A stretch of DNA of 64,000 nucleotides, from contig DVDT01000039.1 in NCBI GenBank assembly GCA_015296085.1, positions 124,001 through 188,000 on the forward strand, given 5' to 3'. Made by a program: the position numbers and the translations under genes. The notes under the pieces were generated by a model that saw only the letters and a program-made list of their open reading frames with translations, searched no databases and was not told where the DNA came from. Of this stretch, positions 16,048 through 63,008 are shown in pieces; the stretch's first letter is position 1; every line of letters begins with the position of its first letter. Source of the DNA: Trichormus sp. M33_DOE_039 (GTDB taxonomy: Bacteria > Cyanobacteriota > Cyanobacteriia > Cyanobacteriales > Nostocaceae).

Positions 16048-16114
16048 ATTGTGGTTTAATCACGTAACACCACATCTGATTAAGCTCTAAACTTTTTAAA
16101 CACTGAGGTAATCA

Positions 16115-16160: not shown

Positions 16161-16178
16161 ATTGGAAATTACTAGAAA

Positions 16179-18020
16179 TTAAGCGAATGCAGCAGTTTTT
16201 ACATCGTTATTTGCCAGAATTTCTTGCAATTCATCCGCATCTACTGTTTCTTTATCAATCAGCATTTGCGCGATTTGGTCTAAGATGTGGCGGTTACTTA
16301 CCAGCACTTCTTTAGCACGGCTGTAGGCTGTGTCTACTAATTTCCGCACTTCTTCGTCAATAGCAGCCGCAGTTTCTTCAGAGAAATCACGCTCTGACAT
16401 GATATCGCGTCCGAGGAACATATTACCTTGCTGACGACCGAGGGCGACGGGGCCGAGTTTATCACTCATCCCAAAGCGGGTAATCATTTGACGCGCTACA
16501 CGCGCAACTTGTTGTAAGTCGTTGGAAGCACCTGTGGTAACTTCTTCTTCACCGAAGATAATTTCTTCTGCTAAACGACCACCTAAAGCCACTGCCATCT
16601 GATTTTCAAGATAAGCGCGGCTGTATAAACCTGTATCCATGCGGTCTTCGCTAGGGGTAAACCAAGTTAAACCACCAGCACGACCACGGGGAATGATGCT
16701 AATTTTTTGTACTGGGTCATAGTCAGGCATTAAAGCACCAACTAGGGCGTGACCAGCTTCGTGATAAGCAACCAAGGTTTTGCGTTTTTCGCTCATTACG
16801 CGGTCTTTCTTCTCTGGCCCAGCTAGAACGCGATCGATGGCATCATTGATTTCATCCATCGAAATTTCGGTTAAGTTGCGTCTAGCTGCTAAAATCGCGG
16901 CTTCGTTGAGCAGGTTGGATAAATCTGCACCTGTAAAGCCAGGAGTCCGGCGAGCGATTTTATCTAAGTCTACGTCTTTGGCTAAGGTCTTGCCACGGGC
17001 ATGGACTTTGAGAATTTCACTACGTCCACCATAGTCGGGACGGTCTACGACGACTTGACGGTCAAAACGACCAGGACGTAATAAGGCCGCGTCTAATACG
17101 TCGGGACGGTTGGTAGCGGCAATAATGATGATGCCTGTGTTACCTTCAAACCCATCCATTTCGGTGAGTAATTGGTTGAGGGTTTGTTCCCGTTCATCGT
17201 TACCACCGCCTAAACCTGCACCCCGTTGACGACCTACAGCGTCAATTTCATCGATGAAGACGATACAGGGAGCATTGGTTTTAGCTTGTTCAAATAAGTC
17301 GCGGACGCGGGAAGCACCCACACCGACAAACATTTCGACAAACTCAGAACCTGAGATGGAGAAGAAAGGTACACCTGCTTCCCCTGCTACTGCGCGCGCG
17401 AGGAGGGTTTTACCTGTACCGGGAGGGCCTACTAGTAGCACACCTTTAGGAATTTTTGCACCGACGGCGGTAAAGCGATCGGCATTTTTCAAAAAGTCTA
17501 CAACTTCGTTTAATTCTAATTTGGCTTGGTCAATACCAGCGACATCGCCAAAGGTGACTTGAGTTTGAGGCTCCATTTGCACTCTCGCTTTGGACTTGCC
17601 AAAGTTCATAGCTTGGCTACCTGGGCCATTTTGAGCGCGACGGAGTAAGAAGAATAAGCCCACCAGCAGTAAAACTGGGAGGAATAAGCTACTTAATGCT
17701 TTGAGCCAAAAACCTTCATCGGTCTGAGGCAGTACTGATATATCAACGCCTTTAGAAGTAAGAGTATTAATTAACTCTGGGTCGTTGACTAAAGTAACAA
17801 GTTTTTTATTAGGGTCGTATTTGGGTGTAACCAAGGCTGTAGAACGGTCTGCACTCAAGCTGACTTTTTCTACTCTGCCTTTTTCTACTTCTTGAATAAA
17901 CTGGCTATATCGCCATGTATCAGGGTTTTGGGGTTGTTTATCAAAGAAAGCTGTGCCAAGAGCAATTACAACAATAAATAGCAGCGCGTACAGCCCCGCA
18001 TTTCTCCATCTTTTATTCAC
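16179..18020 (-). CDS. ftsH: ATP-dependent zinc metalloprotease FtsH
   Basis: 613 residues. Two membrane helices (about 9-25 and 106-125) flank a lumenal/periplasmic loop. The AAA+ module has Walker [14 protein letters not shown] near 198, Walker [12 protein letters not shown] near 257 and the arginine-rich second region of homology ([21 protein letters not shown]). The zinc site is HEAGH at about 419-423. Cyanobacteria carry four FtsH proteins that form hexamers, degrade damaged photosystem II D1 and control membrane protein quality; which paralogue this is cannot be told here. It follows the class IV aminotransferase gene by 87 bp on the same strand. Confidence 0.97.
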
Positions 18021-22200: not shown

Positions 22201-23098
22201 AGTTCGGCGGGATGTCTCCTGTGGCTTGAAACAATGAACACAGCATTAACAGCAGCAACGGTGTTTCCCCAAACTCCCGCAACCTGTCGCCTAAGTTCTG
22301 CAACATCTGCTCACCCTGTTGCGGTAAATAGGCGCGGACAAACTGCTGCATTTGTTCTGCTGTCAGGGGTTGCATTTCCAGCTTCTTAGTAATGCCCAAA
22401 TCACCCCCCACGCCTAAATCCCGCGTGGTGAATATCATCGGCGTGGTTTTTTGGTAGTCTTGCCGGAACTTATATAAATCTTGTCGCGCTTTCTCTGAGG
22501 GTAATTCGTTGATACCATCTACCAGCAGCAAAAATTGTCCCTGACACAGCAGTTGTTCTATGGTTGCAGTTTCTAGTAGTAGGCGATGGCGTTTCAAGAA
22601 ATCCCGAATCAAGTCTAGGACTGAGGTTTGGTAATAGCGCAACTCTACTAAAATGGGGATTTGACCTAACCCCCCGACCCCCTTCCCTGCAAGGGAAGGG
22701 GGAGAATTAACTCCTCTGTCCACTTCGGGGAGGGAAGGGGGAGAACTAGCTCCCCTCTCCGCTTCGGAGAGGGGTTGGGGGAGGGGTTTCTTCGCTTCTT
22801 CCAGCAACAACCGCGCCAACGCTGTGGATTTCCCCGAACCAGGTCGCCCTACTAGCAAAACGTGTTCTTGAGCATATTTCCGCAACCCAGCCAGAACGTC
22901 TAAACGCTCAACTTTCTCCTGGCTTGCGCTCCTTTCTTCCTGGGCAGATTGCACCGTCTGCACCATAAAATCTAATAGTAGCGGTGAGTGCTTCTGCTCA
23001 ATTCGCTGCTGTCCCACTACATCCGTCAGCGTGTAAGTATTCCACCATTGGGCATAATCATTACAGAGTGAGTGTAGGTAATCATTCCAGTTAATCAT
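19211..23098 (-). CDS. NACHT NTPase / HEAT repeats / calcineurin-like phosphoesterase fusion
   Basis: 1295 residues. Residues 1-70 are a helical leader. The NACHT module has Walker A GRPGSGKST (84-92) and Walker B FLLLVDGINEL (189-199). A helical middle region follows to about 505. Thirteen HEAT/PBS-lyase-like repeats of 31 residues (about 507-922, consensus AIPxLIKLLEDxxSxVRSSAAxALGxIKSE) come next; repeat 3 is degenerate. The C-terminal 335 residues (from MYILHLSDLHFG at about 960) are a complete metallophosphoesterase: DLHFG, GDIAN, GNHD (about 1039), WHHP and HGHVH (about 1202). NACHT plus repeats is the NLR/STAND plan of bacterial immune ATPases; the enzyme would be the effector. Residues ~104-146 are encoded by an inserted GC-rich repeat. 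The role is inferred; domains are clear. Confidence 0.92.
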   Translation of the reverse strand: MINWNDYLHSLCNDYAQWWNTYTLTDVVGQQRIEQKHSPLLLDFMVQTVQSAQEERSASQEKVERLDVLAGLRKYAQEHVLLVGRPGSGKSTALARLLLEEAKKPLPQPLSEAERGASSPPSLPEVDRGVNSPPSLAGKGVGGLGQIPILVELRYYQTSVLDLIRDFLKRHRLLLETATIEQLLCQGQFLLLVDGINELPSEKARQDLYKFRQDYQKTTPMIFTTRDLGVGGDLGITKKLEMQPLTAEQMQQFVRAYLPQQGEQMLQNLGDRLREFGETPLLLLMLCSLFQATGDIPPNLGLVFRQFTQSYERQFRQDIPVTDESRRWWFSLLKHLAFYMTTGDKLTELNVAIPKSKAEDVLTQFLQAEKFDRPRDRALEWLQDLLNHHLIQLGANDQIEFRHQLIQEYYTAECLLKQLPNLSDDCLQREYLNYLKWTEPLKLMLELVDDGAQAVRVVNLALKVDWQLGAKLAGAVKQELQQPTVDLVAGLEIPLLFKIRLLGLTKSDKAIPYLIQLLEDGNSDVLYSAASALGEIKSDAAIPGLIKLLEHEKSSVRSRAAKALEEIKSGVVISKLNKLSTHQNKLSTHQNFDELYHAVSELEKIKSEAVISELIKLLEHEKSSVRSSVASALGGIKSETAIPKLIKLLKDKNSYVRSSAADALGKINSETAVPELIKLLGHEDSDTRSSAADALGKIKSKTVIPVLIKLLEDKNYYVRYSAAKSLGKIKSEAAIPVLIKLLEDEYSFVRSRAASALGEIKSEAAILGLIKLLEEKNFYVRYSAAEALGQIKSEQSIPALIKLLEHEESYVCYSAAFALKQINVEMAIPKLIKLLEDKKSTVRSSAAKVLGEIKSEAAIPGLIKLLEDKDSSVRSSAASALGEIKSEVAIPGLIKLLEHEEFVSANNGDTLPYALQALEAIQENCQYYNCLTESKSQHNCLTESKSQPDTPPSQPIKTSLMYILHLSDLHFGTPDQAKLWSNQLASDLQNELGIPQLDALILSGDIANKSTPNEYAAAQQFLDELRQDFRLKPEQIIIVPGNHDLNWQISEEEGYIPTLRKKYQGSMDESCVIDDGGNYIAVLDPENHKRRFEHFSKFYQAIKNQPYPLEYEKQYTLDYFPNQNLLILGLNSAWQLDHHYKSRASINMNALTNALKEIRRQQNYQNCRKIAVWHHPLDSAWEDRIKDQSFMEQLAVAGFRFFLHGHVHKAETSLYRYDMSANGRKLDRICAGTFGAPTHELNPGYPWQYNLLKFVDNQLTVYTRRREELNGAWKPDARWLMGAGQNPLPYYEVQL
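20258..20317. repeat. Tandem 30-bp duplication inside the NACHT-HEAT gene
   Basis: Two copies of a 30-bp unit (20258-20287, 20288-20317; start TTGGGATTTGGATTC) encode the repeated peptide CLTESKSQ in the linker between the HEAT array and the phosphoesterase. The duplication is in frame and adds ten residues. Confidence 0.85.
22673..22790. repeat. GC-rich extragenic-type repeat inserted in frame in the NACHT domain
   Basis: About 118 bp of CCCCCTTCCCT/AGGGAAGGGGG-type palindromes, the same family as the intergenic copy at 23351-23439. It encodes a Pro/Ser/Gly-rich stretch (KPLPQPLSEAERG... GKGVGGLG) between the Walker A helix and the next strand, and keeps the reading frame. Confidence 0.85.
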
Positions 23099-49348: not shown

Positions 49349-50449
49349 ATGATTATTGTCATGAAACCTGCTACTCCAATGGCAGAAATTGAAGCAATTA
49401 GAGTAGAAATTCAACAACGCAATCTTGTTACAGAAATATGTACAGGACAACACAAAGTCGTGATTGGGTTAATCGGTGATACATCAGAAATTGACCAGCA
49501 GCAAATTCACAATCTGAGTCCTTTTATTGAACAGGTTATTCGTATCAAAAAACCATTCAAACGGGCTTCTTTAGAGTTCCGCTATGGAGAGCAGAGTGAA
49601 GTAGTTGTATCTACACCTAATGGACTCGTAACTTTTGGTCAAAATCATCCTTTAGTTATAGTTGCTGGGCCTTGTTCTGTTGAGAATGAGGAAATGATTA
49701 TCGCCACCGCCCACACAGTAAAAGCATCTGGCGCACAATTTCTGCGAGGTGGAGCATACAAACCTCGAACTTCTCCATATGCTTTCCAAGGACATGGTGA
49801 AAGTGCTTTAAATCTATTAGCAAAAGCGCGTGAAGCAACTGGTTTAGGGATTATTACAGAAGTTATGGATGCGGCTGATTTAGATAAGGTGGCAGAAATT
49901 GCAGATGTTATCCAAATTGGCGCACGCAATATGCAGAATTTTTCCCTGTTGAAAAAAGTTGGTGCTACCAATAAACCAGTGCTACTAAAACGTGGTTTGT
50001 CTGCCACAATTGAAGACTGGTTAATGTCAGCTGAATATATTTTAGCAGCCGGGAATCCTAATGTGATTTTATGTGAGCGCGGAATTCGTACTTTTGACAG
50101 ACAATATACCCGCAATACTTTAGATATCTCTGCAATTCCTGTATTGCGATCGCTGACTCATTTACCAATTATGATTGACCCTAGTCATGCTACTGGTATA
50201 TCAGAATTCGTCCCAACAATGGCGATGGCCGCAATTGCAGCCGGTACGGACTCCTTGATGATTGAAGTTCACCCTAACCCGGCTAAGGCTCTTTCCGATG
50301 GGCCGCAGTCTCTCACATTAGAAAGATATACAGAAGTAATGCGGGAACTAGCTACTTTAGCTAAATTCTTTGGTCGTTGGACTGAAAAATTTGCCTATCA
50401 CTCCATACACGATAATGCTGCACACCAAATCTTAAAAGCTAAAGTTTAA
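49349..50449 (+). CDS. aroF: 3-deoxy-7-phosphoheptulonate (DAHP) synthase
   Basis: 366 residues. It condenses PEP and erythrose 4-phosphate, the entry step of the shikimate pathway. Type I-beta form: an N-terminal ferredoxin-like regulatory domain (1-75) precedes the barrel. Seen are AGPCSVEN (about 106-113, metal cysteine), [16 protein letters not shown] (about 132-147), LKRGLSAT near 213 and MIDPSHATG near 273. Leading a cluster that uses chorismate, it is probably a dedicated copy boosting aromatic supply. A perfect hairpin follows before the chorismate lyase gene. Confidence 0.94.
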
Positions 50450-50489
50450 TTTTTATCAGTATTGATTGAATCTCAATTGATTTTTGATG

Positions 50490-50518
50490 CAATAGGTTCT
50501 ATTTACAAGAACCTATTG
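50490..50518 (+). terminator. Perfect 11-bp hairpin between DAHP synthase and chorismate lyase genes
   Basis: CAATAGGTTCT (50490-50500) pairs exactly with AGAACCTATTG (50508-50518) over a 7-nt loop, 41 bp after the DAHP synthase stop. No U tract follows, so it may act as an RNA processing/stability element or partial terminator inside the operon. Confidence 0.5.
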
Positions 50519-50563
50519 ACCATCAACCTTGCTCACTTTTTAGTTACTAAGTAAGGATGAAAT

Positions 50564-51151
50564 ATGATGAATGGTAAAACAGCTTTCTTGGCTTCTGCCT
50601 TAAGAAAAAATCTACAAGTATCTCCACAACGCAGTTATATTGAGCCATCATTACTGAGTACATTTCAAAGAATTCTACTCACCACTAACGGCACAATTAC
50701 CGATATGATTGAAGCCTATTCAGGAGAACAAATCAAGCTGGTAAAGCTGTCTGAAGAAATTATTAATTTAGAGCGTGATATCCCAGAGATGCAATTAAAA
50801 AAAGGGGATGAAGTGGTTGAGAGAAAAATTCTCTTGCGTGGGAGTATCAGTCAGAGAAATTATGTTTATGCTGACTCAATACTCGTTCTCGATAGATTAG
50901 AAAATAATGTCAGAGAGGAATTATTAAATACTAAAAAGCCCATTGGTAAGGTTTGGGTTGAGCAGAAGGTGGCGATATTTAAAGAAAATATCGATTCTGG
51001 TAGAGAAGTAGCGAGTCATTTAGCTGATTATTTTCAGATTCAGCCAAAAGAAAATCTCATTTTTCGGACTTATTGTGTAATTTCTAATAAGCAGTACACG
51101 ATGATGATTACAGAAAAATTCCCTGAAAGTTATTTCCAAAGAATTTTTTAA
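50564..51151 (+). CDS. Chorismate lyase (DUF98 family), making 4-hydroxybenzoate
   Basis: 195 residues. Blocks of the DUF98/chorismate pyruvate-lyase family: the segment LSTFQRILLTTNGTITDMIEAY (about 28-49), VERKILLRG (about 85-93) and a late TEKFPES. The family removes pyruvate from chorismate to give 4-hydroxybenzoate; cyanobacteria use one copy for plastoquinone. A second role here is implied by the neighbours (aryl ligase, 4-hydroxybenzoate hydroxylase homologue). The start has tandem ATGs after AAGGATG. The protein is soluble, of normal length. Confidence 0.85.
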   Translation: MMNGKTAFLASALRKNLQVSPQRSYIEPSLLSTFQRILLTTNGTITDMIEAYSGEQIKLVKLSEEIINLERDIPEMQLKKGDEVVERKILLRGSISQRNYVYADSILVLDRLENNVREELLNTKKPIGKVWVEQKVAIFKENIDSGREVASHLADYFQIQPKENLIFRTYCVISNKQYTMMITEKFPESYFQRIF

Positions 51152-51184
51152 AATACTCAAATTTGCTGATCAATGAGGTGATTT

Positions 51185-52723
51185 ATGTTAATCAAGTTAC
51201 TCAAAAATTCTGTAAATAGCTTTCCGAAAAAGACAGCTATTGTTTATGACAAATTGAGAATTAGCTATCAAGAACTTTATACACAGATTCAAGGCTTAAG
51301 TCAGGGGTTAAAATCCCTTGGGATTGCTCAAGGTGACTGTGTTGCTTTAGTGCTACCCAACTGTCCTGAATTTGTCACTAGTTTTTATGCGATCGCGCAA
51401 TTAAATACTATAGCTTTACCTCTCAATCATCTGTTTAAGGAAGAAGAAATTAGCTATTGTCTTGACGATAGCCAGGCGAAGGTAATTATTACAGATATTA
51501 AACGAGTTGAGATTTGTCGAAGTGCGATCGCTAAACTCAATCGCAATATCAAAATCATCGTCGTTGATGGTTTCCATCCTGAAACTTATTACTTTCATGA
51601 CCTTATCCTCCCAGTAGCATCAGCAATTGATTACAATGCAACTTCCTACTTTACTGGTGACTTACTTTATCAGTATTCATCTGGTTCTACAGGAAGACCA
51701 AAACGAGTTTGTCGGACTCAATTAAACCTCTATCATGAAGTAAAAAACTTCACTGTTACCACCCAAATCACATCAGCCGATAATTTCTTGTGTACCGTTC
51801 CTCTATATCACTCCCACGGGTTAGGAAATTGCTTATTGGCGGCTACTTGCAATGGTGCAACTTTGGTCATTTTAGAGCAGGTTATACAGAAAAATGGTAC
51901 TCCTATCGAAGTCCCCTTTGTCTTTCGTCGCCCCAGAGTTTTAGAACTCATCCAAAGTGAGAGTATTTCGATTTTGCCTGCTGTTCCCTACATTTTTAAC
52001 ACCCTGGCAGAAACACCAACTGACATACAAGTAGATTTATCGAGTTTGAGACTTTGCTTTTCAGCAGGTAATTTCCTATCCCAAGAAGTATTTGATAAAT
52101 TCTTGCAACGTTTTCATCTTCCTGTCCGCCAACTTTATGGGTGTACGGAAGCGGGTTCTATTGCAATTAATTTAGGTGCAGAACTGGAAGAAACATATAA
52201 TTCTGTTGGTTTCCCCATGCAAAATGTCGAAATCAAAATTGTTGATGATGAAGGTAAAGAAGTTCCAACTGGGGTGATTGGAGAAGTAGTCATTAAAAGT
52301 CAAACATTGACCTGTGGTTACTCAAATATGCCTGAACTCAATCAACAAGCATTTAAAGATAGCTGCTTTTTTACAGGTGATTTAGGCAAAAAAGATAACT
52401 TTGGTCGCCTTTATATTACAGGTCGTAAAAAGCTCTTAATTGATACAGGTGGGCGCAAAATTGACCCTATAGAAATTGAGGACATTTTACTCACTCACCC
52501 TAAAGTCAAAGAAGTCGTAGTAGTTGGTGTTAAAGGGCATCATGCCGGGGAAATCGTTAAAGCAGTTATTGTACAGCAAGGACGAGATAAATGTGAAGAC
52601 CGAGAAATTTTAGGTTACTGCAAAGAACGACTCGCAGAATTTAAAATCCCTAAAATCATTGAATTTCGCTCGGAAATTCCTAAGAGTCCTCTGGGTAAAA
52701 TTCTTAGAAAAGAACTAGTCTAA
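51185..52723 (+). CDS. Aryl-AMP ligase (class I adenylate-forming enzyme)
   Basis: 512 residues, stand-alone adenylation enzyme. The P-loop motif YQYSSGSTGRPKRV is at about 160-173 (the usual K is present, but RV replaces GV after it). Further motifs are LYGCTEAGS (about 318-326), FTGDLGKKDNFGRLYITGR (about 398-416) and the catalytic lysine in PKSPLGKILRKEL near the end. Next to a chorismate lyase and a free carrier protein, it most likely activates 4-hydroxybenzoate (or its hydroxylated/chlorinated form) and loads it as a thioester. A CoA-ligase role is the alternative. GAGGTG precedes the ATG. Confidence 0.88.
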   Translation: MLIKLLKNSVNSFPKKTAIVYDKLRISYQELYTQIQGLSQGLKSLGIAQGDCVALVLPNCPEFVTSFYAIAQLNTIALPLNHLFKEEEISYCLDDSQAKVIITDIKRVEICRSAIAKLNRNIKIIVVDGFHPETYYFHDLILPVASAIDYNATSYFTGDLLYQYSSGSTGRPKRVCRTQLNLYHEVKNFTVTTQITSADNFLCTVPLYHSHGLGNCLLAATCNGATLVILEQVIQKNGTPIEVPFVFRRPRVLELIQSESISILPAVPYIFNTLAETPTDIQVDLSSLRLCFSAGNFLSQEVFDKFLQRFHLPVRQLYGCTEAGSIAINLGAELEETYNSVGFPMQNVEIKIVDDEGKEVPTGVIGEVVIKSQTLTCGYSNMPELNQQAFKDSCFFTGDLGKKDNFGRLYITGRKKLLIDTGGRKIDPIEIEDILLTHPKVKEVVVVGVKGHHAGEIVKAVIVQQGRDKCEDREILGYCKERLAEFKIPKIIEFRSEIPKSPLGKILRKELV

Positions 52724-52757
52724 ATCTTTAATTATTCACTTAGCAGGAGCAACCAAA

Positions 52758-53012
52758 ATGTTTACTACTGAAAGCGTTAAACAACAAATTCAACAATTAG
52801 TTAGTGAAGTTTTGCCAGATGTCAGCCCAGAAGAATTACAAGACAATGTTGATATTTTTAACTTAGGTCTAGATTCAATCAATGCTATGACCTTAGTTTC
52901 TAACTTGCAAGATGCTTTTGATATTCAATTAGATGCCAGCGAGATTAGTTTTGAAAATTTCCAGAATATCGCTACGATTGTAGACATGATTGAAAGCAAA
53001 AAGGGATTATAA
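52758..53012 (+). CDS. Stand-alone acyl/aryl carrier protein
   Basis: 84 residues, four-helix carrier protein. The phosphopantetheine site is S40 in LGLDSINAM. It would carry the aryl group activated by the preceding ligase; the gap between them is 34 bp with a good AGGAG. Its acidic character and length are typical. Confidence 0.9.
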   Translation: MFTTESVKQQIQQLVSEVLPDVSPEELQDNVDIFNLGLDSINAMTLVSNLQDAFDIQLDASEISFENFQNIATIVDMIESKKGL

Positions 53013-53026
53013 ACGGGTTATATAAA

Positions 53027-53083
53027 GTTCGTAGTGAGGACTTTATTCCTTTTTAAATGAGGGCTAAAATCCCTACTACGAAC
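53027..53083. repeat. 57-bp inverted-repeat element inside the cluster
   Basis: GTTCGTAGT (53027-53035) pairs with ACTACGAAC (53075-53083); the core contains GAGGGCTAAAATCCCT. Belongs to a group of 'TTCGTAGT...GGGCT' repeats common in cyanobacteria, related to the copy at 59989-60062. Lies between the carrier protein and NRPS genes. Confidence 0.75.
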
Positions 53084-53115
53084 ATAAAAATTTTTGATAT
53101 TTCTGCTTAACTATT

Positions 53116-55683
53116 ATGTCGCTTCAAACACTCACAACACAGCAAAGCCAGTCAGCAGCAGCACAGCAAGACCTTTGGCAGGCCATTAAAAACGTTATCA
53201 GTTTACAAAATCAAGCACCGCCTTTAGTACCAGTTTCCAGAGAAAATTCCTTACCCTTATCTTTTCCACAAGAAAGACTATGGTTTTTACATCAACTCGA
53301 ACCCAGCCGCGCCTCAGCTTATAATATTCCTTTAGGATTAAAAATCACTGGCAATCTTAATATATCGGCTCTGCAAAAAAGCCTGAATGAAATCTTAGTG
53401 CGTCACGAAACTTTACGTACTACTTTTTCATCTTCAGCAGGTAAACCCATTCAAATCATTCACCCACCAACTAATTTCACTTTCTCCATCGTCGATTTAC
53501 AAAATTTACCTCAACAACAGCGAGAGACTGAAGCACTCAAATTAATTCAAGCAGAAACTAGAAAACCTTTTGATCTGTCAAAATTACCTTTGATTCGGGC
53601 AAATTTATTCCAACTAGATCAAGAACAATATATTCTCCTATTTACAGTTCACCATATTATTATCGATGCTTGGTCAAAAGGCGTACTTTTTCAAGAATTA
53701 GCAACACTTTATACTGCCTTTGTTAAGGATCAGCCGTTACCTTTAACGGAACTAAAAATTCAATATGCAGATTTTGCTGTTTGGCAACGTCAATCACTTG
53801 CAGATGAGTTTCAAGAATTGTTGTTGAACTACTGGAAACAACAATTAGGCAGCAATCTCCGTGAGTTAAATATCCCCACAGACCGTCCTCGCCCGACTGT
53901 ACCTAAATCTGGTAGTGCTTATAAAAAACTGATACTACCCTCAGAACTTACTAAGGGACTTAAAGCTTTAAGTCGTCAAGAGGGTGCAACCCTATTTGCT
54001 ACTTTATTAGCTGCTTTCAATGTACTACTCTACCGCTACACAGAACAAGAAGACTTGTTTGTCTGTAGTCCTATTGCTAACCGCAACCGCAAGGATATTA
54101 AGCCACTAATTGGTTATTTTATTAACTTACTCATCTTACGAACCCAGTTTGATCCCCATTCTTCCTTTCAAACATTATTAAGTGAAGTTCGTAAAGTGGC
54201 TTCTGGCGGTTTCGCTCACCAAGATTTACCAGTACAGCAATTAATCAATTCTCTCAACCTGCTGCAAACACCTTTATCGCGTGTGATGTTTGCATTGCAG
54301 AATACAGCCATACATACTCTGCAACTACCAGGTCTAACTGTACAAAATCTAGATTTAGATTGTGGGACAGCAGACTTTGATTTGTATCTGTATCTGATTG
54401 AAGAAGGTGATACTCTGGCGGCTGTATTTAAATACAACACAGATTTATTTGATGAGACAACTATTGCCCAAATGCTAGGACATTACAAAATCATTTTAGA
54501 TCAGATCGTTAACGATCCAGGGCAGACTGTCTTATCATTGTTACCCCTCAGCATGGAGGAACAGCAACAACTGCAAGCTAAACGAGTTAAACAGGTTGAT
54601 AACTCCATCCCAGCCACACCCAGAATTTATGTTGCTCCCCGCAACACTGTAGAACTAAAATTAACGCAGATTTGGAGTCAGCTTTTAGGCATTGATTCTA
54701 TAGGTGTACAAGATAATTTTTTTGATTTGGGGGGACAATCATTACTAGCAATGAGTTTGTTCACTCAAATTGAACAGGCTTTTGGTCAAACTCTACCTTT
54801 AGGTACTCTCCTTCAAGCACCAACAATTGAACAACTGGCTCAAATTCTTAACGCAGCAACAGGTACAAATTCTTGGTCTTCGTTAGTACCAATTCAAACT
54901 CAAGGAACAAAACCCCCCTTCTTGTGTGTGCATGGACAGCAGGGAAATGTCCTCAATTTTCGAGAATTAGCTCGTTATTTGGGTGATGATCAGCCTTTCT
55001 ATGGTTTGCAAGCGAAAGGTTTAGATGGAAAACAAGCTCCTTACTTCCGTATAGAAGACATGGCCGCCCACTACATTCGAGAAATTCGCACCATTCAGCC
55101 CACAGGGCCTTATTACTTGGGGGGGAATTCGATGGGGGGAACGATCGCCTTTGAGATGGCGCAACAACTCCAACAACAAGGTGAGAAAGTTGCACTATTA
55201 GTAATGTTTGATACCTTCAACAAGGGGGCTTTTCCCAGGCTATCATTCCGACAACAGCATTATGGGGCTTATTTGTGGCAGATGGGTTTGTCTTCAGAGT
55301 TATTAGCAGAATTAGGCGAATTGCTACAACGTCAGATCCAAACTTTAATCTGCCAGTTGTACTTGCGGTTAGGAATGTCTTTACCTGCAAATTTGCATCG
55401 GGTGTTTGTAGCAGAAGCGAATATGCAAGCTAAAAGAGCTTATACACCCCAAATATATAGCGATCGCCTCGTCTTATTTCGTGCCACTGAGCCTGCTGTC
55501 TTTACAAAACGGTATTTACCTACCTCAGAAGATTGGCTTCATCGCGACCCTCTCCACGCTTGGGGTGAATTTACTAGCGCAGGGTTGGAAATTCATGATG
55601 TTCCAGGGGATCACTATTCAATTTTTGCACAGCCTCATGTACAAACTTTAGCCGCAAAATTAAAGGCTTGTTTAGCACCATAA
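53116..55683 (+). CDS. NRPS protein: condensation - carrier - thioesterase, no adenylation domain
   Basis: 855 residues. Condensation domain about 40-480 with SFPQERLWFLHQLEP (50-64) and the active-site HHIIIDAWS near 178-186. Carrier domain about 510-590 with serine in DNFFDLGGQSLLAMS (about 533-547). Type I thioesterase about 600-855: nucleophile GNSMGG near 669, and catalytic histidine in GDHYSIF near 831. It has no adenylation domain, so the carrier must be loaded by the stand-alone ligase (or the C domain uses a free nucleophile). That suggests joining of two aryl units, or of an aryl unit with an amine/alcohol, then release by the thioesterase. Confidence 0.93.
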   Translation: MSLQTLTTQQSQSAAAQQDLWQAIKNVISLQNQAPPLVPVSRENSLPLSFPQERLWFLHQLEPSRASAYNIPLGLKITGNLNISALQKSLNEILVRHETLRTTFSSSAGKPIQIIHPPTNFTFSIVDLQNLPQQQRETEALKLIQAETRKPFDLSKLPLIRANLFQLDQEQYILLFTVHHIIIDAWSKGVLFQELATLYTAFVKDQPLPLTELKIQYADFAVWQRQSLADEFQELLLNYWKQQLGSNLRELNIPTDRPRPTVPKSGSAYKKLILPSELTKGLKALSRQEGATLFATLLAAFNVLLYRYTEQEDLFVCSPIANRNRKDIKPLIGYFINLLILRTQFDPHSSFQTLLSEVRKVASGGFAHQDLPVQQLINSLNLLQTPLSRVMFALQNTAIHTLQLPGLTVQNLDLDCGTADFDLYLYLIEEGDTLAAVFKYNTDLFDETTIAQMLGHYKIILDQIVNDPGQTVLSLLPLSMEEQQQLQAKRVKQVDNSIPATPRIYVAPRNTVELKLTQIWSQLLGIDSIGVQDNFFDLGGQSLLAMSLFTQIEQAFGQTLPLGTLLQAPTIEQLAQILNAATGTNSWSSLVPIQTQGTKPPFLCVHGQQGNVLNFRELARYLGDDQPFYGLQAKGLDGKQAPYFRIEDMAAHYIREIRTIQPTGPYYLGGNSMGGTIAFEMAQQLQQQGEKVALLVMFDTFNKGAFPRLSFRQQHYGAYLWQMGLSSELLAELGELLQRQIQTLICQLYLRLGMSLPANLHRVFVAEANMQAKRAYTPQIYSDRLVLFRATEPAVFTKRYLPTSEDWLHRDPLHAWGEFTSAGLEIHDVPGDHYSIFAQPHVQTLAAKLKACLAP

Positions 55684-55796
55684 AAAATTTATGAACTAGC
55701 TGCATAAAATACTGATAACAAGATGATAAGTCATTCAAATCGGTAGCGAAAAGTTCAACTTACCAAGATTTAAAAGCTTAACGAGGATATTTTCTC

Positions 55797-57521
55797 ATGA
55801 ACGCAAATATGTATGATGTTGCCATTTGTGGCGGTGGTTTAGCTGGATTAACTCTAGCCAGACAGTTAAGACAAACAATGCCGAATCTCTCCATTATTGT
55901 CCTTGATCGTTTGTCCCGCCCTTTACCCGAAGCGACTTTTAAAGTAGGAGAATCGACAGTAGAAGTAGGCGCACACTATTTAGGTGAAGTGCTTCAATTA
56001 ACTGATTACTTTGAAAAAAATCATTTACCAAAACTAGGTCTGAGATATTTCTTTGGTGATACAACAGGCCCAATAGAAAACAGACCAGAATTGGGTTTAT
56101 CAAGGTTTCATTCACCCTCTTCATATCAAATTGATCGCGGTAGATTAGAAAATGACTTGCGGCAGTTCAATATAGAAGCAGGCATAAACCTAGTAGAAAA
56201 TTGTCTGGTTCAAGAAATTGAGATTGCTGAACAATCTATACAATTGCACAATATTATTTATACCCAAGGCGCAGATAAACAAACTCACACAATACAGGCT
56301 CGTTGGGTAATTGATGCGATGGGTCGCCGCCGATTTATCCAAAAGAAATTAGGTTTAGGCAAGCCAAATAATTCTAGATATAGTGCAGTGTGGTTTTGGT
56401 TTGATGGTCGTCTAGATATTAGCAATTTTGTCGATAGAAGTGTTACAGAGTGGCACGATCGCGTCCCCAATGACCAACGTTATTATTCAACTAATCACTT
56501 GTGCGGTAAAGGTTACTGGGTCTGGTTGATTCCTTTATCATCTAACAACACTAGTATTGGGATTGTGACTGATGAAGAATCACAACCCTTTGGTGAACAT
56601 CATACTTACGAACAGGCTTTCCAATGGTTAGAAAAGCATGAACCTGTCTTAGCATCGCATCTCAAGGGATATCAGCCCGAAAAATTTATGAAGATGCCCA
56701 AGTATAGTTACTCTTCTCGTCAAGTCTTTTCTAGCGATCGCTGGGCTTGTGTGGGTGAGGCTGGGATGTTCCCTGATCCCTTCTATTCCCCTGGCACAGA
56801 TTTAATCGGCTTTGGTAATTCTCTAGTCACCCAAATGATTCAAGCTGACTTAGAAGGTAAACTCACCCCAGAAATGGTGAATGATGCCAACCGCTTTTTA
56901 ATTACCTATCGAGATGGAGTCGCCAGCAATATTCACGCTATGTATTCCTGTTTACATAGTGAAGTAACTGGGGCTGTCAAAGTCATCTGGGATACTTTAG
57001 CTGCTTGGTCATTTAGCGCGCCTTTAATGTTCAATTCCATATTCCTGGATTCGGAGAAGAGAGCCAAAATCCGTAAAGGTTCTGGACAGTTCTTTTTGCT
57101 AACTCACCGGATGCAACAACTGTTTAAAGATTGGGCAGCTAAGTCTACACATATAGGCACATTTGAATTTATCGATTATTTGGAGATGCCCTTTGTCAGT
57201 GAGTTGCGATCGCGCAATTTACAATCTAATAAAACTGAACAAGAACTGATCGATGACCATATCGCTAGTATACAAATGTTTGAGGAATTAGCCCAAGTCA
57301 TTTTCTTGTTGGCATTAGCAGATACCATGCCAGAAAAATTAAATGATTTTCCTGAAAATGTGTGGTTAAATGCCTGGGCAATTAGTTTAGATCCTGAAAA
57401 ATGGGAAAATGATGGCTTATTTAGACCTACTTCCCAACCTCGCAATCTACACCGAATTAAGGAACAATTTCAAAAAGTTATTAAATTCCGCTCTCAAGTC
57501 AGAGAAATGGCTGCTGTTTAA
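55797..57521 (+). CDS. Flavin-dependent halogenase
   Basis: 574 residues. An N-terminal FAD-binding fold (CGGGLAGLTLARQL, about 10-23; FKVGESTVEVGAHYLGE, about 47-63) and the halogenase WxWxIP signature as WVWLIPL at about 241-247. GDRW-like CVGEAGMFPDPFYSPGTDL (about 318-336) places it with the phenol/pyrrole halogenases acting on carrier-bound substrates rather than free tryptophan. In this cluster it most plausibly chlorinates or brominates a hydroxybenzoyl ring. A separate flavin reductase gene is not seen here. Related non-halogenating FAD oxidases remain possible but the signature argues against it. Confidence 0.82.
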   Translation: MNANMYDVAICGGGLAGLTLARQLRQTMPNLSIIVLDRLSRPLPEATFKVGESTVEVGAHYLGEVLQLTDYFEKNHLPKLGLRYFFGDTTGPIENRPELGLSRFHSPSSYQIDRGRLENDLRQFNIEAGINLVENCLVQEIEIAEQSIQLHNIIYTQGADKQTHTIQARWVIDAMGRRRFIQKKLGLGKPNNSRYSAVWFWFDGRLDISNFVDRSVTEWHDRVPNDQRYYSTNHLCGKGYWVWLIPLSSNNTSIGIVTDEESQPFGEHHTYEQAFQWLEKHEPVLASHLKGYQPEKFMKMPKYSYSSRQVFSSDRWACVGEAGMFPDPFYSPGTDLIGFGNSLVTQMIQADLEGKLTPEMVNDANRFLITYRDGVASNIHAMYSCLHSEVTGAVKVIWDTLAAWSFSAPLMFNSIFLDSEKRAKIRKGSGQFFLLTHRMQQLFKDWAAKSTHIGTFEFIDYLEMPFVSELRSRNLQSNKTEQELIDDHIASIQMFEELAQVIFLLALADTMPEKLNDFPENVWLNAWAISLDPEKWENDGLFRPTSQPRNLHRIKEQFQKVIKFRSQVREMAAV

Positions 57522-57542
57522 TTATTCTTCTAGGTGTAGAGT

Positions 57543-58745
57543 ATGAATACTACAACAGCGTTAACAACATCAATTTGCATTTTAGGTGCAGGCCCGGCAG
57601 GGATTGTTCTTGGTCATATTCTCCTTAAAAATGGTATTGATTGTATTGTCATTGATAAATATAATCGCGAAGAAATTTATGCCAGAGGAAGAGCAGGGGC
57701 AATCGAAAGTACAACTTTTCAATTACTGAATAAGTATGGTTTAGCCGATACTATCCTCCAAAAAGGACGGACACAAAATAGCTGTGAATTTCGTTATCCA
57801 CAAGGCAGTCTTGTATTTACATACAGTGATTTAAGTGATGGCGATGTTCATTACGTCTATCCCCAAAGCAACCTTAATGATGATTTAATTCAAAAATATA
57901 TCGATGCAGGTGGCAAAATACTCTTACACCATGAAGGACAAAAAATCACTCAAACTGAAGATGGTGTAACTGTTGAATGTTATGCTCAAGACATTGGGGA
58001 AAAAGTAATTATTCACGCTGATTTTGTCGCAGGTTGCGACGGATATCATGGTTTAGCACGGCAATCAATTCCAGATCAAGCTGTTACCATCTATAACAAA
58101 CAATACAACTATCGTTGGTTAGCCCTTTTAGCCTACGCACCACCTGCCGCTAACCATGCCATTTACGCTCTACATCCTGATGGTTTTGCCGCTTTTCTAC
58201 TCCGTAACAACCATGTTTCTCGCTATTATTTACAAATTCCCTTACATGACCAATTACAAGATTGGTCAGATGATAGAATTTGGGAAAATTTGCAGAAACG
58301 CCTTGCTAAATCAGGTTGTAAGTTACCGATAGGAACAATCTTTGAAAAACGGATTATGGCATTACGTAACTATGTCATAGAACCGTTAAGATATCAGCGA
58401 TTATTAATAGCTGGTGATGCAGCCCATATTATTACTCCAATGGGTGGTAAAGGTTTAAATCTAGCTGTTCAAGATGCAGGTGTTTTAGCAGAAACTTTAG
58501 TTAGTTACTATCTAGAAAAACACGAACTTTCATATCTAGAACGCTACTCTGAAATCCGGTTGCCCTACATTTGGCGCGCTCAAGAATTCTCTTGTAGTCT
58601 CCTAAATATGTTACACAAATCTGAAAGTAATGATCCCGACGAGGTGAGATTTCATCAGAAGTTAAGTGAAGCTAAACTGTTGCAACTAACTCAACCTACT
58701 ACCTTTGCTAAAAACTTCGCTAGGAACTATGTCGGCATCATATAG
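57543..58745 (+). CDS. 4-hydroxybenzoate 3-monooxygenase homologue (PobA-like)
   Basis: 400 residues, very close in length and order to PobA: GAGPAGIVLGHIL (about 15-27), the segment CDGYHGLARQSIP (about 161-173), GDAAHIITPMGGKGLNLA (about 292-309) and the C-terminal NYVGI. Compared with the well-studied enzyme, the tyrosine in IYALHP, the arginines and YY in RNNHVSRYYLQ, and the last NY are kept. The serine that binds the carboxylate (S212 in the Pseudomonas numbering, in CSQRS) becomes leucine (FLLRN), so the substrate may be an esterified or thioesterified form. It expects FAD and NADPH and adds a 3-hydroxyl ortho to the phenol. 21 bp after the halogenase gene. Confidence 0.87.
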   Translation: MNTTTALTTSICILGAGPAGIVLGHILLKNGIDCIVIDKYNREEIYARGRAGAIESTTFQLLNKYGLADTILQKGRTQNSCEFRYPQGSLVFTYSDLSDGDVHYVYPQSNLNDDLIQKYIDAGGKILLHHEGQKITQTEDGVTVECYAQDIGEKVIIHADFVAGCDGYHGLARQSIPDQAVTIYNKQYNYRWLALLAYAPPAANHAIYALHPDGFAAFLLRNNHVSRYYLQIPLHDQLQDWSDDRIWENLQKRLAKSGCKLPIGTIFEKRIMALRNYVIEPLRYQRLLIAGDAAHIITPMGGKGLNLAVQDAGVLAETLVSYYLEKHELSYLERYSEIRLPYIWRAQEFSCSLLNMLHKSESNDPDEVRFHQKLSEAKLLQLTQPTTFAKNFARNYVGII

Positions 58746-58915
58746 ATATGATGTGGTTTAACCACTACATTACAAGATGTGAAAGAGGATAGACTTACTC
58801 AAGACTACGTGTATACGTATTAATAAAAAATTTGTGAATATTGGGTAGAAATAATCATTTTTGTTCTTAAAATATTCACCAGTTTTGTTCCGTAATATTC
58901 CCAAGGAGGAAGGGG

Positions 58916-58932
58916 TAAATCCCCTATACCTA
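58916..58932 (+). promoter_or_regulatory. Small hairpin in the leader of the cupin gene
   Basis: AGGGG-TAAAT-CCCCT lies between AAGGAGG (58902-58908) and the ATG (58936). The SD core is 27 bases from the ATG; folding the hairpin would bring it close. Position and spacing are unusual; a control function is inference. Confidence 0.35.
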
Positions 58933-58935
58933 TAC

Positions 58936-59967
58936 ATGAAATCAGCTTTATTTGGTTTAATTGGTTCTTTGGTTTTAACTTTAACAGTTGGTTCTACTGC
59001 CAAAGCTGCCAGCATGAAAGATATGTCAGAAGTGCGACCACTCCCCGCAGAGTTGATGGAGTACATTGAGCAAGCAGAAGCAGGTACTTTACCAGATCCT
59101 CTAACTCTTGGTAAGGAAACTCTATGGGTAGCTGGTGGACGTAACACTTTTTTAGAAACAGTTGCAGACAATGGTGGGAAATACTCCGTATTTGATCTTT
59201 ACGTTCCTCCCAACGTCGGCCCACCTCTGCACTTTCACAACCGTGAAGATGAGTGGTTCTATGTGGTAGAAGGAAATCCCAGTTTCCAACACCAAGATCA
59301 TACCTTCGTAGCAGATCCCGGCACATTACTTTTTAGCCCTCAGTTAGAACGTCATGCCTTTTTAAATAAAACAAAAGACCCAGTGCGGATGCTGCTGTTT
59401 TATGCACTACCGCCAGGAAGTGATTCCACATTTGCGGGAAATATTGAAGAGTTCTTTAGGGAAGTAGGCCAAGAAGTTACTGATCCTTATACTCCACCAC
59501 CATTTAATCCTGCTGAACTCCTCATTGCTGGGCCAAAATATGGCCTCACCTTTCCTAGTACCTTTGTGTTCACCACACCTGAGTTTACTGGTAACGAAGT
59601 CTCTATTCTTCGTACTGGTGTAGTTGATGCAGCCGCTAGAGTCATTCTGAGTTTGGGTAATGGCATTGAAATCCCAGTAGAGTTTGGTGTTGGTGAGTTC
59701 TTGCAAAATGTCTCTATACCCACAAACTTGGGTAATCAACCCCTCAATTTAACTTTGAAAGATCCCAGCGAAGGTTCATATCTAGGTTTACTGCAAAATC
59801 AAGCTGTGCTGATAACTACTAGCGTACCAGAATCTTCTTCTACTGTTGGTTTATTAGCCTTTGGCGTGTTAGGCGTGGCTTTATTGCTGAAGAAAAAGCA
59901 ATCTAGATTCGGTCACATAAGTCAACTACAACTCAAAACTGCCAAGATAAACGCTTCACAAATTTAG
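58936..59967 (+). CDS. Exported cupin-domain protein with PEP-CTERM-like tail
   Basis: 343 residues from the ATG that begins the signal peptide (MKSALFGLIGSLVLTLTVGSTAKA). The cupin core is PPLHFHNREDEWFYVVEGNPSF (about 94-115) and TLLFSPQLERHAFLN, giving the two metal-binding histidine boxes. Near the C-terminus VPESSSTVGLLAFGVLGVALLLKKK resembles a PEP-CTERM sorting signal with the second P changed to S, so the protein is likely held at the envelope. Mononuclear cupins include dioxygenases and binding proteins; which this is cannot be read. It follows the PobA-like gene by 190 bp. Confidence 0.82.
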   Translation: MKSALFGLIGSLVLTLTVGSTAKAASMKDMSEVRPLPAELMEYIEQAEAGTLPDPLTLGKETLWVAGGRNTFLETVADNGGKYSVFDLYVPPNVGPPLHFHNREDEWFYVVEGNPSFQHQDHTFVADPGTLLFSPQLERHAFLNKTKDPVRMLLFYALPPGSDSTFAGNIEEFFREVGQEVTDPYTPPPFNPAELLIAGPKYGLTFPSTFVFTTPEFTGNEVSILRTGVVDAAARVILSLGNGIEIPVEFGVGEFLQNVSIPTNLGNQPLNLTLKDPSEGSYLGLLQNQAVLITTSVPESSSTVGLLAFGVLGVALLLKKKQSRFGHISQLQLKTAKINASQI

Positions 59968-59988
59968 TGGTCTGTTGCACAAAGTATA

Positions 59989-60062
59989 CAAGGTTTGTAG
60001 TCAGGGCTTTAGCCCTTGAAGTACGTATTCAAAAATGGCTAAATCCTTAACTACAAACCTTG
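59989..60062. repeat. 74-bp inverted-repeat element after the cupin gene
   Basis: A perfect 13-bp repeat CAAGGTTTGTAGT (59989-60001) / ACTACAAACCTTG (60050-60062) encloses CAGGGCTTTAGCCCTTG. Similar to the 53027-53083 element and to 'TTTGTAGT...AGGGCTTTAGCCC' repeats scattered through cyanobacterial genomes. Confidence 0.8.
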
Positions 60063-60116
60063 TGTTTAAGCTTCAAAAGACAATGTTTTGTCAAGTTTTT
60101 CAACAAGGGAATTTTC

Positions 60117-60731
60117 ATGATTGAACTTTATACTCACAACACACCCAACGGTCATAAGATATCGATTTGTTTGGAAGAACTTAAACTTCCTTATTCTGTC
60201 AAAGTAGTTGATGTGCGTCAGGGTGAACAATTTAAAGATGAGTTTTTAGCATTGAATCCCAACGCTAAAATTCCGGTGATTTTCGACCATGAAACAGGAC
60301 AAACAATCTTTGAATCTTGTGCAATTCTGCTGTATCTAGCAGATAAAACTGGATGTTTAATCCCATCAGGCCAAGCTAGGTGGGAAGCAATTGAGTGGTT
60401 ATTCTTCCAAGCTGCTTCCATTGGCCCAATGCTAGGACAACGCGCCCACTTTGCGTTTTTTGCTCCCGAAAAAATTCCTTATGCTATCGAACGCTACACT
60501 AAGGAAACTGAACGCCTTTATGGTGTGCTGGAAGGCCGTTTGAAGGAACGCAAATATATCTGCGATGAATACTCGATTGTAGATATTGCCCATTGGGGTT
60601 GGATCTACACAGCTAAACGTATGGGCTTTAGCTTAGACCCATTTCCTAGTCTATCCGCATGGCACGATCGCATTGCAGAACGCCCCGCAGTTGCTAAAGG
60701 TATTACCATCCCCGCACCCTTACCTATGTAA
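60117..60731 (+). CDS. Glutathione S-transferase family protein
   Basis: 204 residues from the ATG after AAGGGAATTTTC. Thioredoxin-like N-terminal domain (IELYTHNTPNGHKISICLEELKLPY), cis-proline in AKIPVIFD near 58, and EScAILLYLA near 72-81 for the glutathione gamma-glutamyl group, then an all-helical C-terminal domain. GSTs conjugate or isomerise electrophiles. Its place after the halogenase cluster suggests handling of a quinone or chlorinated intermediate, but it could simply be a neighbour. A longer frame upstream to 60060 lacks homology and overlaps the repeat. Confidence 0.88.
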   Translation: MIELYTHNTPNGHKISICLEELKLPYSVKVVDVRQGEQFKDEFLALNPNAKIPVIFDHETGQTIFESCAILLYLADKTGCLIPSGQARWEAIEWLFFQAASIGPMLGQRAHFAFFAPEKIPYAIERYTKETERLYGVLEGRLKERKYICDEYSIVDIAHWGWIYTAKRMGFSLDPFPSLSAWHDRIAERPAVAKGITIPAPLPM

Positions 60732-61297: not shown

Positions 61298-62122
61298 ATG
61301 GTACTACGCTCTAAAAGACCACTTGCTCCCAACAAAAAGCCCAAACAATTTGTTTGGGGAATTCTCCAGCAAATCTTTGCTCCATTATGCGGTATTGCCA
61401 GTATTTTGATCTTATGGCATTTGATGAGTCTTACTCCCGATACTTCTTTACCTTCTCCTTTTGAAGTTATCAGCAATACTTGGGGATTAATTGTTGACCC
61501 ATTTTTTAATAAAGGTGGATTAAACAAAGGCTTTTTTTGGTTGATTTTGGCTAGTCTCAAACGAGTTATGTTTGGATATTTAATAGCTGTATTAATTGGT
61601 ATTCCCATTGGGTTTTTAATTAGCCTTAATCGTTTTTTAAGAGAAGCTATAGATCCGGTGATTCAGCTTTTACGTCCTGTTGCACCCCTAGCTTGGCTAC
61701 CTTTAGCACAAGCTATATTTTTGAAACCCAATCCATCAGCTATTTTCGTCATTACTATTACTGCTATTTGGCCGATTATTCTCAATACAGCTTTGGGTGT
61801 AAAAATGGTTCCCAAAGATTATACCAATGTCTCAAAAATCTTAGAGCTTTCATTTTTTGAGAACTTTTATAAGGTCTTAATCCCTGCAACACTACCGTAC
61901 ATTTTTACTGGGTTAAGAATTGCTATTGGTCTTTCTTGGTTGGCCGTAGTTGCAGCAGAAATGTTACTGTCTGATGACGGATTAGGCTTTTTTATTGTGA
62001 ATGCTTATAACAATTCCAACATCAGCGAGATAATATTGGCGATTATATATTTAGGTATAGTAGGTTTGATTCTAGACAAAATTATGTCTTACATAGCTTT
62101 CAAAGTTACGCCGCAAGAATAG
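61298..62122 (+). CDS. ABC transporter permease (nitrate/sulfonate/bicarbonate type)
   Basis: 274 residues, five or six membrane helices. Binding-protein-dependent permease of the SsuC/TauC/NrtB group: IGIPIGFLISLNR (about 99-111), PVAPLAWLPLAQAIF (about 127-141) and the cytosolic EAA-like loop ILELSFFENFYKVLIPATLPYIFTGLRIA (about 184-212). The next gene is the matching ATPase, 58 bp on. A substrate such as nitrate, bicarbonate, taurine or an alkanesulfonate is possible; the binding-protein gene points to the CmpA/NrtA side. Confidence 0.9.
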   Translation: MVLRSKRPLAPNKKPKQFVWGILQQIFAPLCGIASILILWHLMSLTPDTSLPSPFEVISNTWGLIVDPFFNKGGLNKGFFWLILASLKRVMFGYLIAVLIGIPIGFLISLNRFLREAIDPVIQLLRPVAPLAWLPLAQAIFLKPNPSAIFVITITAIWPIILNTALGVKMVPKDYTNVSKILELSFFENFYKVLIPATLPYIFTGLRIAIGLSWLAVVAAEMLLSDDGLGFFIVNAYNNSNISEIILAIIYLGIVGLILDKIMSYIAFKVTPQE

Positions 62123-62180
62123 TAATAGTCAATATTTACTGTCCCCCATCCTCTGTCCCTTAATATTAAAAGAACCTCCA

Positions 62181-63008
62181 ATGCAGAACTTTGTCACGAT
62201 TCACGGCATTAATAAAGAGTACCCTGCACCCAATGGTGAGAGAAACGTTATTCTCAAAGATATTTATCTAGAAATTAAGCAAGGAGATTTTGTTTCTCTG
62301 ATTGGTCATTCTGGTTGCGGTAAATCTACTTTACTGAATATGATTGCAGGTATGGAAAAGCCTTCTAGCGGTTATGTAGAAGTAGATGGTACAAGAGTAA
62401 AACGTCCAGGTGCAGAACGAATGATGGTATTTCAAAACTATTCGTTGTTACCTTGGTTAAGTGCTTGGGATAATGTGGCTTTAGCTGTCGATAAAGTGCT
62501 ATCTCATAAACCAAAAGTTGAACGCGATCGCATTGTTGCCGCTCACTTAGAAATGGTAGGTTTGAAAGATGCAGCCCGCAAAAAACCAGGACAACTTTCT
62601 GGGGGGATGAAACAAAGAGTTGCCCTGGCTCGTGCTTTAGCAATTAAACCCAAACTGTTACTGTTGGATGAACCCTTTGGGGCTTTGGATGCACTCACCC
62701 GCAAAACTCTACAAGCCGAATTAATGGATATTTGCAATCAGGCTCATATCACAACCATTATGGTGACTCATGATGTTGATGAAGCACTGTTACTTTCTGA
62801 TCGCGTGGTGATGTTGAATAATGGCCCGGCTGCTACTATTGGCCAAATTTTAGATGTTCCTTTTGGTCGTTCTCGCATTCCATCAGAGATTGTAGATCAT
62901 CCCCTTTATCATGATCTGCGCCACGAATTGCTGAATTTTTTGCACCATCAACAGCAAGCGCAATATAAAGAAGTTGAAAAAATGCCGATTTTGAAATCTG
63001 CGGCGTAA
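62181..63008 (+). CDS. ABC transporter ATP-binding protein (NrtD/SsuB type)
   Basis: 275 residues. Walker A GHSGCGKST (about 42-50), Q-loop MVFQNYSLLPW near 87, signature LSGGMKQRVALARAL (about 138-152), Walker B LLLLDEPFGALDALTRKTL and the H-switch TIMVTHDVDEAL. Compared with NrtC it has no fused substrate-binding domain, so it is NrtD/SsuB-like. It drives the permease encoded 58 bp upstream. The GCGATCGC palindrome lies within it. Confidence 0.93.
   Translation: MQNFVTIHGINKEYPAPNGERNVILKDIYLEIKQGDFVSLIGHSGCGKSTLLNMIAGMEKPSSGYVEVDGTRVKRPGAERMMVFQNYSLLPWLSAWDNVALAVDKVLSHKPKVERDRIVAAHLEMVGLKDAARKKPGQLSGGMKQRVALARALAIKPKLLLLDEPFGALDALTRKTLQAELMDICNQAHITTIMVTHDVDEALLLSDRVVMLNNGPAATIGQILDVPFGRSRIPSEIVDHPLYHDLRHELLNFLHHQQQAQYKEVEKMPILKSAA

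Follow-up and report, generated by a model that had tools for sequence, protein, structure and literature searches.

A 64,000-nucleotide stretch of Trichormus sp. M33_DOE_039 (NCBI GenBank assembly GCA_015296085.1, contig DVDT01000039.1, positions 124,001 to 188,000), here called the window, carries a set of nine genes that is the subject of this analysis. In our numbering the window is G000:C105:124001-188000, G000 being its own genome of 7.0 Mb. A check of the open reading frames (ORFs) found nine unbroken ORFs of the same direction at positions 49349-60731 of the + strand, the place given earlier, with successive gaps of 114, 33, 34, 103, 113, 21, 115 and 92 bp (range 21-115) and 566 bp from the ninth ORF to the next gene. 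They encode a 3-deoxy-D-arabino-heptulosonate 7-phosphate (DAHP) synthase, a chorismate lyase, a ligase, a free carrier protein, a protein with condensation, carrier and thioesterase domains (C-T-TE), a halogenase, a PobA-like hydroxylase, a cupin and a glutathione S-transferase (GST). These assignments are backed by Pfam and NCBIfam, the exception being the cupin, which has no NCBIfam match at 0.001 (Table 1). We propose, with a probability of roughly 0.6, that the operon makes a halogenated dihydroxybenzoate by carrier-bound halogenation, release by the C-T-TE protein and PobA-like hydroxylation.

Table 1. Genes of the cluster in window coordinates, with the domain and family models that identify them.
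Feature	Positions	Strand	Basis of assignment
DAHP synthase with ferredoxin-like N domain	49349..50449	+	PF00793 294.3 bits, PF18152; NF009933 670.5 bits, cut-off 486
Chorismate pyruvate-lyase, Rv2949c-like	50564..51151	+	PF01947 46.5 bits, cut-off 22; nearest solved chain 2nwi, E 4e-17
Stand-alone AMP-forming ligase	51185..52723	+	PF00501 and PF13193
Free carrier protein, GLDS attachment motif	52758..53012	+	PF00550 54.5 bits
C-T-TE protein without adenylation domain	53116..55683	+	PF00668, PF00550, PF00975
FAD-dependent halogenase	55797..57521	+	PF04820 36 bits, cut-off 21
PobA-like FAD hydroxylase	57543..58745	+	NF006091 396.7 bits, cut-off 351
Cupin, PEP-CTERM-like tail	58936..59967 (earlier ORF start 58861)	+	PF07883 44.4 bits
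Glutathione S-transferase	60117..60731 (earlier ORF start 60060)	+	PF13409, PF00043; NF010579 194.8 of 332 bits

The annotated start codons of the cupin and GST genes are probably too far upstream. The later starts are given in Table 1 because relatives begin at the equivalent residue, namely in locus L026 for the cupin (MKSALFGL) and in L026 and L027 for the GST (MIELYTHN). Promoter and terminator scans returned fewer sites than in shuffled sequence and were uninformative.

Five genomes from three families, the window's own among them, have the full set of nine kinds of gene in the same order (G000, G001, G036, G331 and G339; families f1, f3 and f2). The nine-gene operon is thus far beyond chance, and the nine co-oriented genes can be treated as one set, as the initial annotation had done. 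The run of carrier, C-T-TE and halogenase genes is present in ten genomes, and halogenase-type clusters occur in at least ten, the five above together with G117, G366, G368, G376 and G406. Nine of these come from 388 genomes of the order, in which the lyase gave 63 matches (E 1e-8), the halogenase 28 (E 1e-120) and the PobA-like protein 17 (E 1e-50), with neighbourhoods read for part of the 28 halogenase and 63 lyase genomes. G406 comes from a lyase search of 217 genomes of the family (20 matches, E 1e-20). Several of the cluster genomes, G368 among them, are draft assemblies, and the clusters of G368 and G376 are cut by contig ends. The copies differ in detail: a GDSL hydrolase gene is inserted in G331, G339 and G406, G331 has extra cupins, G117 has all kinds but the GST in the stretch read and G406 lacks the DAHP synthase in the stretch read. 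The DAHP synthase of G366 and G376 is a different one, 71% like its AroFGH-type counterpart in L080, and the cupin of these two genomes is upstream; no GST was seen before the contig end in G366. The window cluster is 78-93% identical to its counterpart in G001, a genome of the same genus, and 58-85% to the one in G406, from the same family.

Cluster DNA of G117, G331/G339 and G368, which belong to families f15, f2 and f8, is 94-97% identical over stretches longer than 1 kb, with 90-92% in some shorter stretches, and the halogenases of these four genomes form a tight group in the tree. The uvrA gene is only 72-75% identical at the DNA level for two of the three family pairs (G117-G331 and G117-G368), and UvrA protein 77-79% between the families. 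Since the cluster DNA is far closer than uvrA, recent transfer is indicated, and the cluster is probably mobile between cyanobacterial families, as judged from these comparisons. The G117 copy is no stray contig because it is sited on a contig of 1.69 Mb, whereas the G368 contig is just 6.9 kb. An IS605-type OrfB gene is located 1.5 kb upstream of the G339 cluster.

The DAHP synthase and the lyase would supply 4-hydroxybenzoate via chorismate. The window lyase reaches just 20.1 of 175 bits to NF037993 (cyano_chori_ly, the cyanobacterial chorismate lyase equivalog) and therefore looks like a dedicated enzyme set apart from that equivalog. Relatives of the ligase in the PDB include oxalate-, feruloyl- and 4-coumarate-CoA ligases and a 2,3-dihydroxybenzoate-AMP ligase. 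We propose that it is an aryl ligase which takes 4-hydroxybenzoate and loads it onto the free carrier, whose GLDS serine is kept in 13 of 13 aligned rows including that of the window.

The flavin halogenase would then chlorinate, or brominate, the carrier-bound ring ortho to the phenol. Its motifs in the window are KVGEST, PKLG, GYWVWLIP and CGGGLAG. The marks of flavin halogenases (GxGxxG, WxWxIP and the active-site lysine) are present and aligned in eight copies, the first motif being slightly variable. The nearest solved chain is PltA (E 3e-21), and the lysine of PKLG aligns with that of PltA FPKK. A halogenase 64% identical to that of the window is encoded in a Microcystis non-ribosomal peptide synthetase (NRPS) locus, L001; we take it to be the cyanopeptolin enzyme McnD, which chlorinates a tyrosine phenol. 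The Microcystis gene is sited between NRPS genes, whereas that of the window lies within a hydroxybenzoate operon. Among plasmid records the best halogenase match is 54% (Gloeothece), and the chorismate lyase matches are 25-27%.

The window C-T-TE protein carries HHIIIDAWS in its C domain, with alanine at the glycine place of HHxxxDG, GGQSL in its carrier domain and GNSMG in its TE domain. GNSMG is present in all ten halogenase-type clusters, that of the window included, and their C motif is HHxxxDA in eight and HHxxxDF in two, although several of the ten are near-copies of one another and the independent cases are fewer. HHxxxDG is retained in five of five copies of a halogenase-free core. 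Nine NRPS-type loci have 22 C motifs, of which 20 keep the glycine, one has alanine and one serine; the counts omit two pattern matches from other frames or proteins (the 369-aa frame of L026 and the 343-aa frame of L132). The altered motif fits, short of proof, a C domain with a changed task. In the route proposed here, this domain would move the aryl group to its own carrier domain, and hydrolysis by the TE would give 3-halo-4-hydroxybenzoic acid; both the carrier-bound halogenation and the release are suggested by analogy with the ambigol route described below.

Alternatively, the C domain may join the halohydroxybenzoyl group to a second T-bound unit, either a hydroxybenzoate, so that a depside results, or an amino acid that is loaded in trans, before the TE releases an ester or amide of the kind expected in the initial annotation. 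The C and T motifs are present save for the single replacement of Gly by Ala, three of the copies carry an inserted GDSL hydrolase gene, and a possible source of a second hydroxybenzoate is found in the Hyg5-like chorismatase of L081 and L084, two related core loci. Against such coupling stand the single adenylating enzyme among the nine genes, the free acid that the comparable ambigol protein reportedly releases and the alteration of HHxxxDG in 10 of 10 halogenase-type copies (several of them near-copies) as compared to its retention in 5 of 5 halogenase-free cores. We therefore consider coupling unlikely. Because the nine genes hold only one adenylating enzyme, an ester or amide is not required.

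The next enzyme of the proposed route resembles PobA (4-hydroxybenzoate 3-monooxygenase) over its full length and in most active-site residues, and it passes the subfamily model NF006091, in line with its first description as PobA-like. In PobA numbering, the equivalents of Y201, R214, R220, Y222, N300 and Y385 are invariant in eight aligned copies. It differs from PobA in the substrate pocket, where S212 is replaced by Leu or Met and T294 by Met in seven of the seven copies shown, and in its biosynthetic setting with halogenases. The gene stands beside the carrier, C-T-TE and halogenase run in nine of the ten genomes, and the G376 contig stops before that place. Chorismate lyase is present in 16 of the 17 genomes with a PobA-like gene as compared to 63 of 388 overall (Fisher p 6e-13, ignoring kinship of the genomes), the exception being G368, whose contig starts inside the cluster, and eight of the 17 also have a halogenase of the window type. 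In our proposal this enzyme would hydroxylate the acid to, most likely, 5-halo-3,4-dihydroxybenzoate; the position of this hydroxylation, like the identity of the halide and the roles of the cupin and the GST, is what we infer for the route.

It is also conceivable that the PobA-like enzyme hydroxylates at C1 with oxidative decarboxylation, giving a halogenated hydroquinone that the GST and cupin would process as in chlorophenol degradation. The altered pocket (S212 to Leu or Met) and the nearness of the GST and cupin genes would agree with this, as would similar PobA-like genes near FMO-like (flavin-containing monooxygenase-like) enzymes, which are direct neighbours in L062, while in L113 a PF04820 halogenase-like protein adjoins the PobA-like gene and the FMO-like gene lies beyond. 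However, the Arg and Tyr that we take to bind the carboxylate in PobA are retained, and the best models for the GST are disulfide-bond oxidoreductases, all below their cut-offs, so that we judge decarboxylation quite improbable. The GST copies that were compared are 60-97% identical.

The window cupin has a signal-peptide-like N-terminus, and its C-terminus scores 15.0 of 16 bits to TIGR02595 (PEP-CTERM), just under the curated cut-off. Exosortase (PF09721) was found in nine of nine genomes searched, which were eight of the ten cluster genomes and G349. The earlier description as a secreted cupin can be refined to a probably exported protein with a PEP-CTERM-like, exosortase-type tail of near-threshold score. 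The metal-binding motif HxHx4E...H is kept in nine different aligned rows, and the best solved relative is SLL1785 (E 3e-6), presumably the periplasmic copper cupin CucA. The cupins vary most among the cluster proteins (30-90%), some pairs comparing different paralogues. In the proposed route the extracellular cupin and the GST would act on, or protect against, the halocatechol. Taken further, the cluster may be a mobile route to a surface-acting halocatechol, in which the HHxxxD(A/F) C domain serves as an acyl shuttle and forms no bond, and the PobA-like enzyme with the changed pocket gives a halogenated protocatechuate. This compound would be used or oxidised, as an allelochemical or a ligand for metal, by a metal cupin that an exosortase anchors to the cell surface; we offer this extension tentatively and hold it to be rather doubtful.

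The closest known counterpart is the ambigol (ab) cluster of Symphyonema bifilamentata (formerly Fischerella ambigua), for which formation of 3-chloro-4-hydroxybenzoic acid was reportedly described by Duell in 2020 and Kresna in 2021. The enzymes for this acid are said to be a DAHP synthase, a chorismate lyase, a ligase, a carrier, a halogenase acting on the carrier-bound ring and Ab9, a C-PCP-TE protein (PCP, peptidyl carrier protein) that takes over the acid and frees it. By domain and gene content the first six genes of the window cluster match this set kind for kind. If Ab9 is indeed C-PCP-TE, as reported, the C domain offers no contrast to ambigol, contrary to what had been supposed. No counterpart of the ambigol P450s and second halogenase was found at the window locus, where a PobA-like hydroxylase, a PEP-CTERM-like cupin and a GST are found instead. 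The absence of a cytochrome P450 from the locus was confirmed among the nine genes and the next ones, and P450 queries gave no match in those cluster stretches that were read. The gene assignments and motifs agree with the reading of these co-oriented genes as a pathway that turns chorismate into a halogenated hydroxybenzoate. That the cluster is related to that of ambigol without being the same holds, with a shared six-gene core and a differing tail. Its description as unrecognised can be kept for the last three genes and not for the whole pathway, as a known route probably accounts for the first half, and the second half is new in combination. No named product or cluster that matches was found in the open-licence literature.

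All 20 lyase neighbourhoods of the 217 family genomes were read with the nine proteins of the window cluster, two P450 queries and one for an FMO, and none combined the six-gene module with either P450. The cblaster search of Jung et al. (2021) found ab clusters in no other organism (PMC8065813), which fits the different tail seen here. Ambigols are built from 2,4-dichlorophenol (PMC13097137), and one may ask whether the window genes give 3-chloro-4-hydroxybenzoate for conversion to dichlorophenol and coupling by P450s encoded elsewhere in the genome. P450 genes do occur outside the cluster in the window's own genome, with 9 matched stretches, and three other cluster genomes (G117, G339 and, with a partial one, G331) encode FMO-like enzymes away from the cluster that share 67-76% identity with those of bmp-like loci. 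Yet the cluster stretches that were read gave no match to the two P450 queries or the FMO query, FMO kin in the window's own genome are just 28-31% identical, none was found at E 1e-10 in G001, G366 and G376, and the recurring partner of the cluster is the PobA-like gene instead. An ambigol-like product made in trans is thus very improbable. The hs_bmp polybrominated diphenyl ether cluster resembles the window in having a chorismate lyase beside a halogenase; its minimal set is the brominase Bmp5, the chorismate lyase Bmp6 and the P450 Bmp7 (PMC6520454). The window cluster differs from it in having a ligase, a carrier, a C-T-TE protein and another type of halogenase, and its nine genes include neither a P450 nor an FMO-type enzyme.

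Several observations weigh against the route to a halogenated dihydroxybenzoate. The PobA-like protein reaches 326 of the 538.7 bits of the PobA equivalog TIGR02360, the changes at S212 and T294 suggest that the free acid may not be its substrate, and the 17 PobA-like genes include two distant ones, at 46% and 40%. Alanine in place of glycine in the C domain is not diagnostic alone because it occurs once in NRPS-type loci too, and the C-T-TE protein could join two units. The correspondence with the reported ambigol enzymes is one of domain and gene content. The halogenases of the ten clusters do not form one clade, as two from G296 fall inside; one of these (L119) is in an NRPS stretch and the other (L118) has a carrier protein, a fragment of a ligase and NRPS pieces as neighbours. 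L118 may thus represent one more cluster, now broken, and the ten genomes are therefore a lower count. The cblaster negative (PMC8065813) also tells against very close similarity of the core, provided that such genomes were already public at that time.

If the ambigol scheme is as reported, the halobenzoate module is not limited to one strain and occurs with a new tail in at least ten genomes of the order. The enzymes of the cluster bear on whether the sole task of a C domain can be to hand an acyl group to a carrier for later hydrolysis, and on why a PobA-type hydroxylase stays beside halogenases, and the predicted halogenated dihydroxybenzoate is searchable by mass spectrometry.

The neighbourhoods indicate that the chorismate lyase family serves several kinds of locus, some with none of the listed partners. 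A halogenase-free core of ligase, carrier and C-T-TE is found in L068, L080, L081, L086 and, incomplete, in L084. In L080, L081 and L084 it comes with an AroFGH-type DAHP synthase, besides the Hyg5-like chorismatase of the latter two. The TE domains of L080 and L081 have Cys in the nucleophile motif (GRCFG), and that of L084 is off the contig. In L097, L101, L105, L126 and L128-L132 the lyase, ligase and carrier directly precede multi-module NRPS genes, making these loci candidates for 4-hydroxybenzoyl-started peptides.

Loci L069, L093, L104, L135, L143 and L144 resemble bmp clusters in having the lyase, one or two FMO-like enzymes and two P450s. L093 (G217, candidate cluster at 3019-17512), L143 and L144 also have a DAHP synthase, a phosphoenolpyruvate synthase, which in L143 is truncated where the locus ends, and a TauE-type exporter, and L093 a sulfotransferase, so the bmp-like loci are candidate clusters for halogenated diphenyl ethers, perhaps sulfated. 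Sulfotransferase-rich lyase loci (L073, L078, L079, L083, L085, L087, L088, L092, L125 and L141) are reminiscent of aeruginoguanidine clusters. L079 and some others of them have a ligase, a small carrier protein and a HemN-like radical SAM protein, and L073 has a halogenase 62% like that of the window. The TauE/SafE-type exporter is present in varied hydroxybenzoate loci (L060, L061/L107, L062, L093, L143 and L144) and is a possible exporter of aromatic products.

Nitrate-type ABC transporter genes lie downstream of the window cluster at 61298-63008 and also follow the cluster in G001. They were provisionally set aside as a part of it, since nothing matched them in what was read around the clusters of G036, G331, G339, G117 and G406. 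Counting against this, their relatives adjoin chorismate lyase in L104 (77% and 71%) and L089 (45% and 53%). The permease and ATPase genes by the lyase in L104 (G462, 9455-12700) and L089 (G338) may point to a functional link. Elsewhere in the window, a 1295-aa protein encoded at 19211-23098 on the - strand combines a weak match to NACHT with long HEAT repeats and, at its C-terminus, a calcineurin-type phosphoesterase, and looks like a STAND-type conflict or defence protein. An IS605-type OrfB/TnpB gene with a Cas12f1-like TNB domain is present at 4013-5221 on the + strand.

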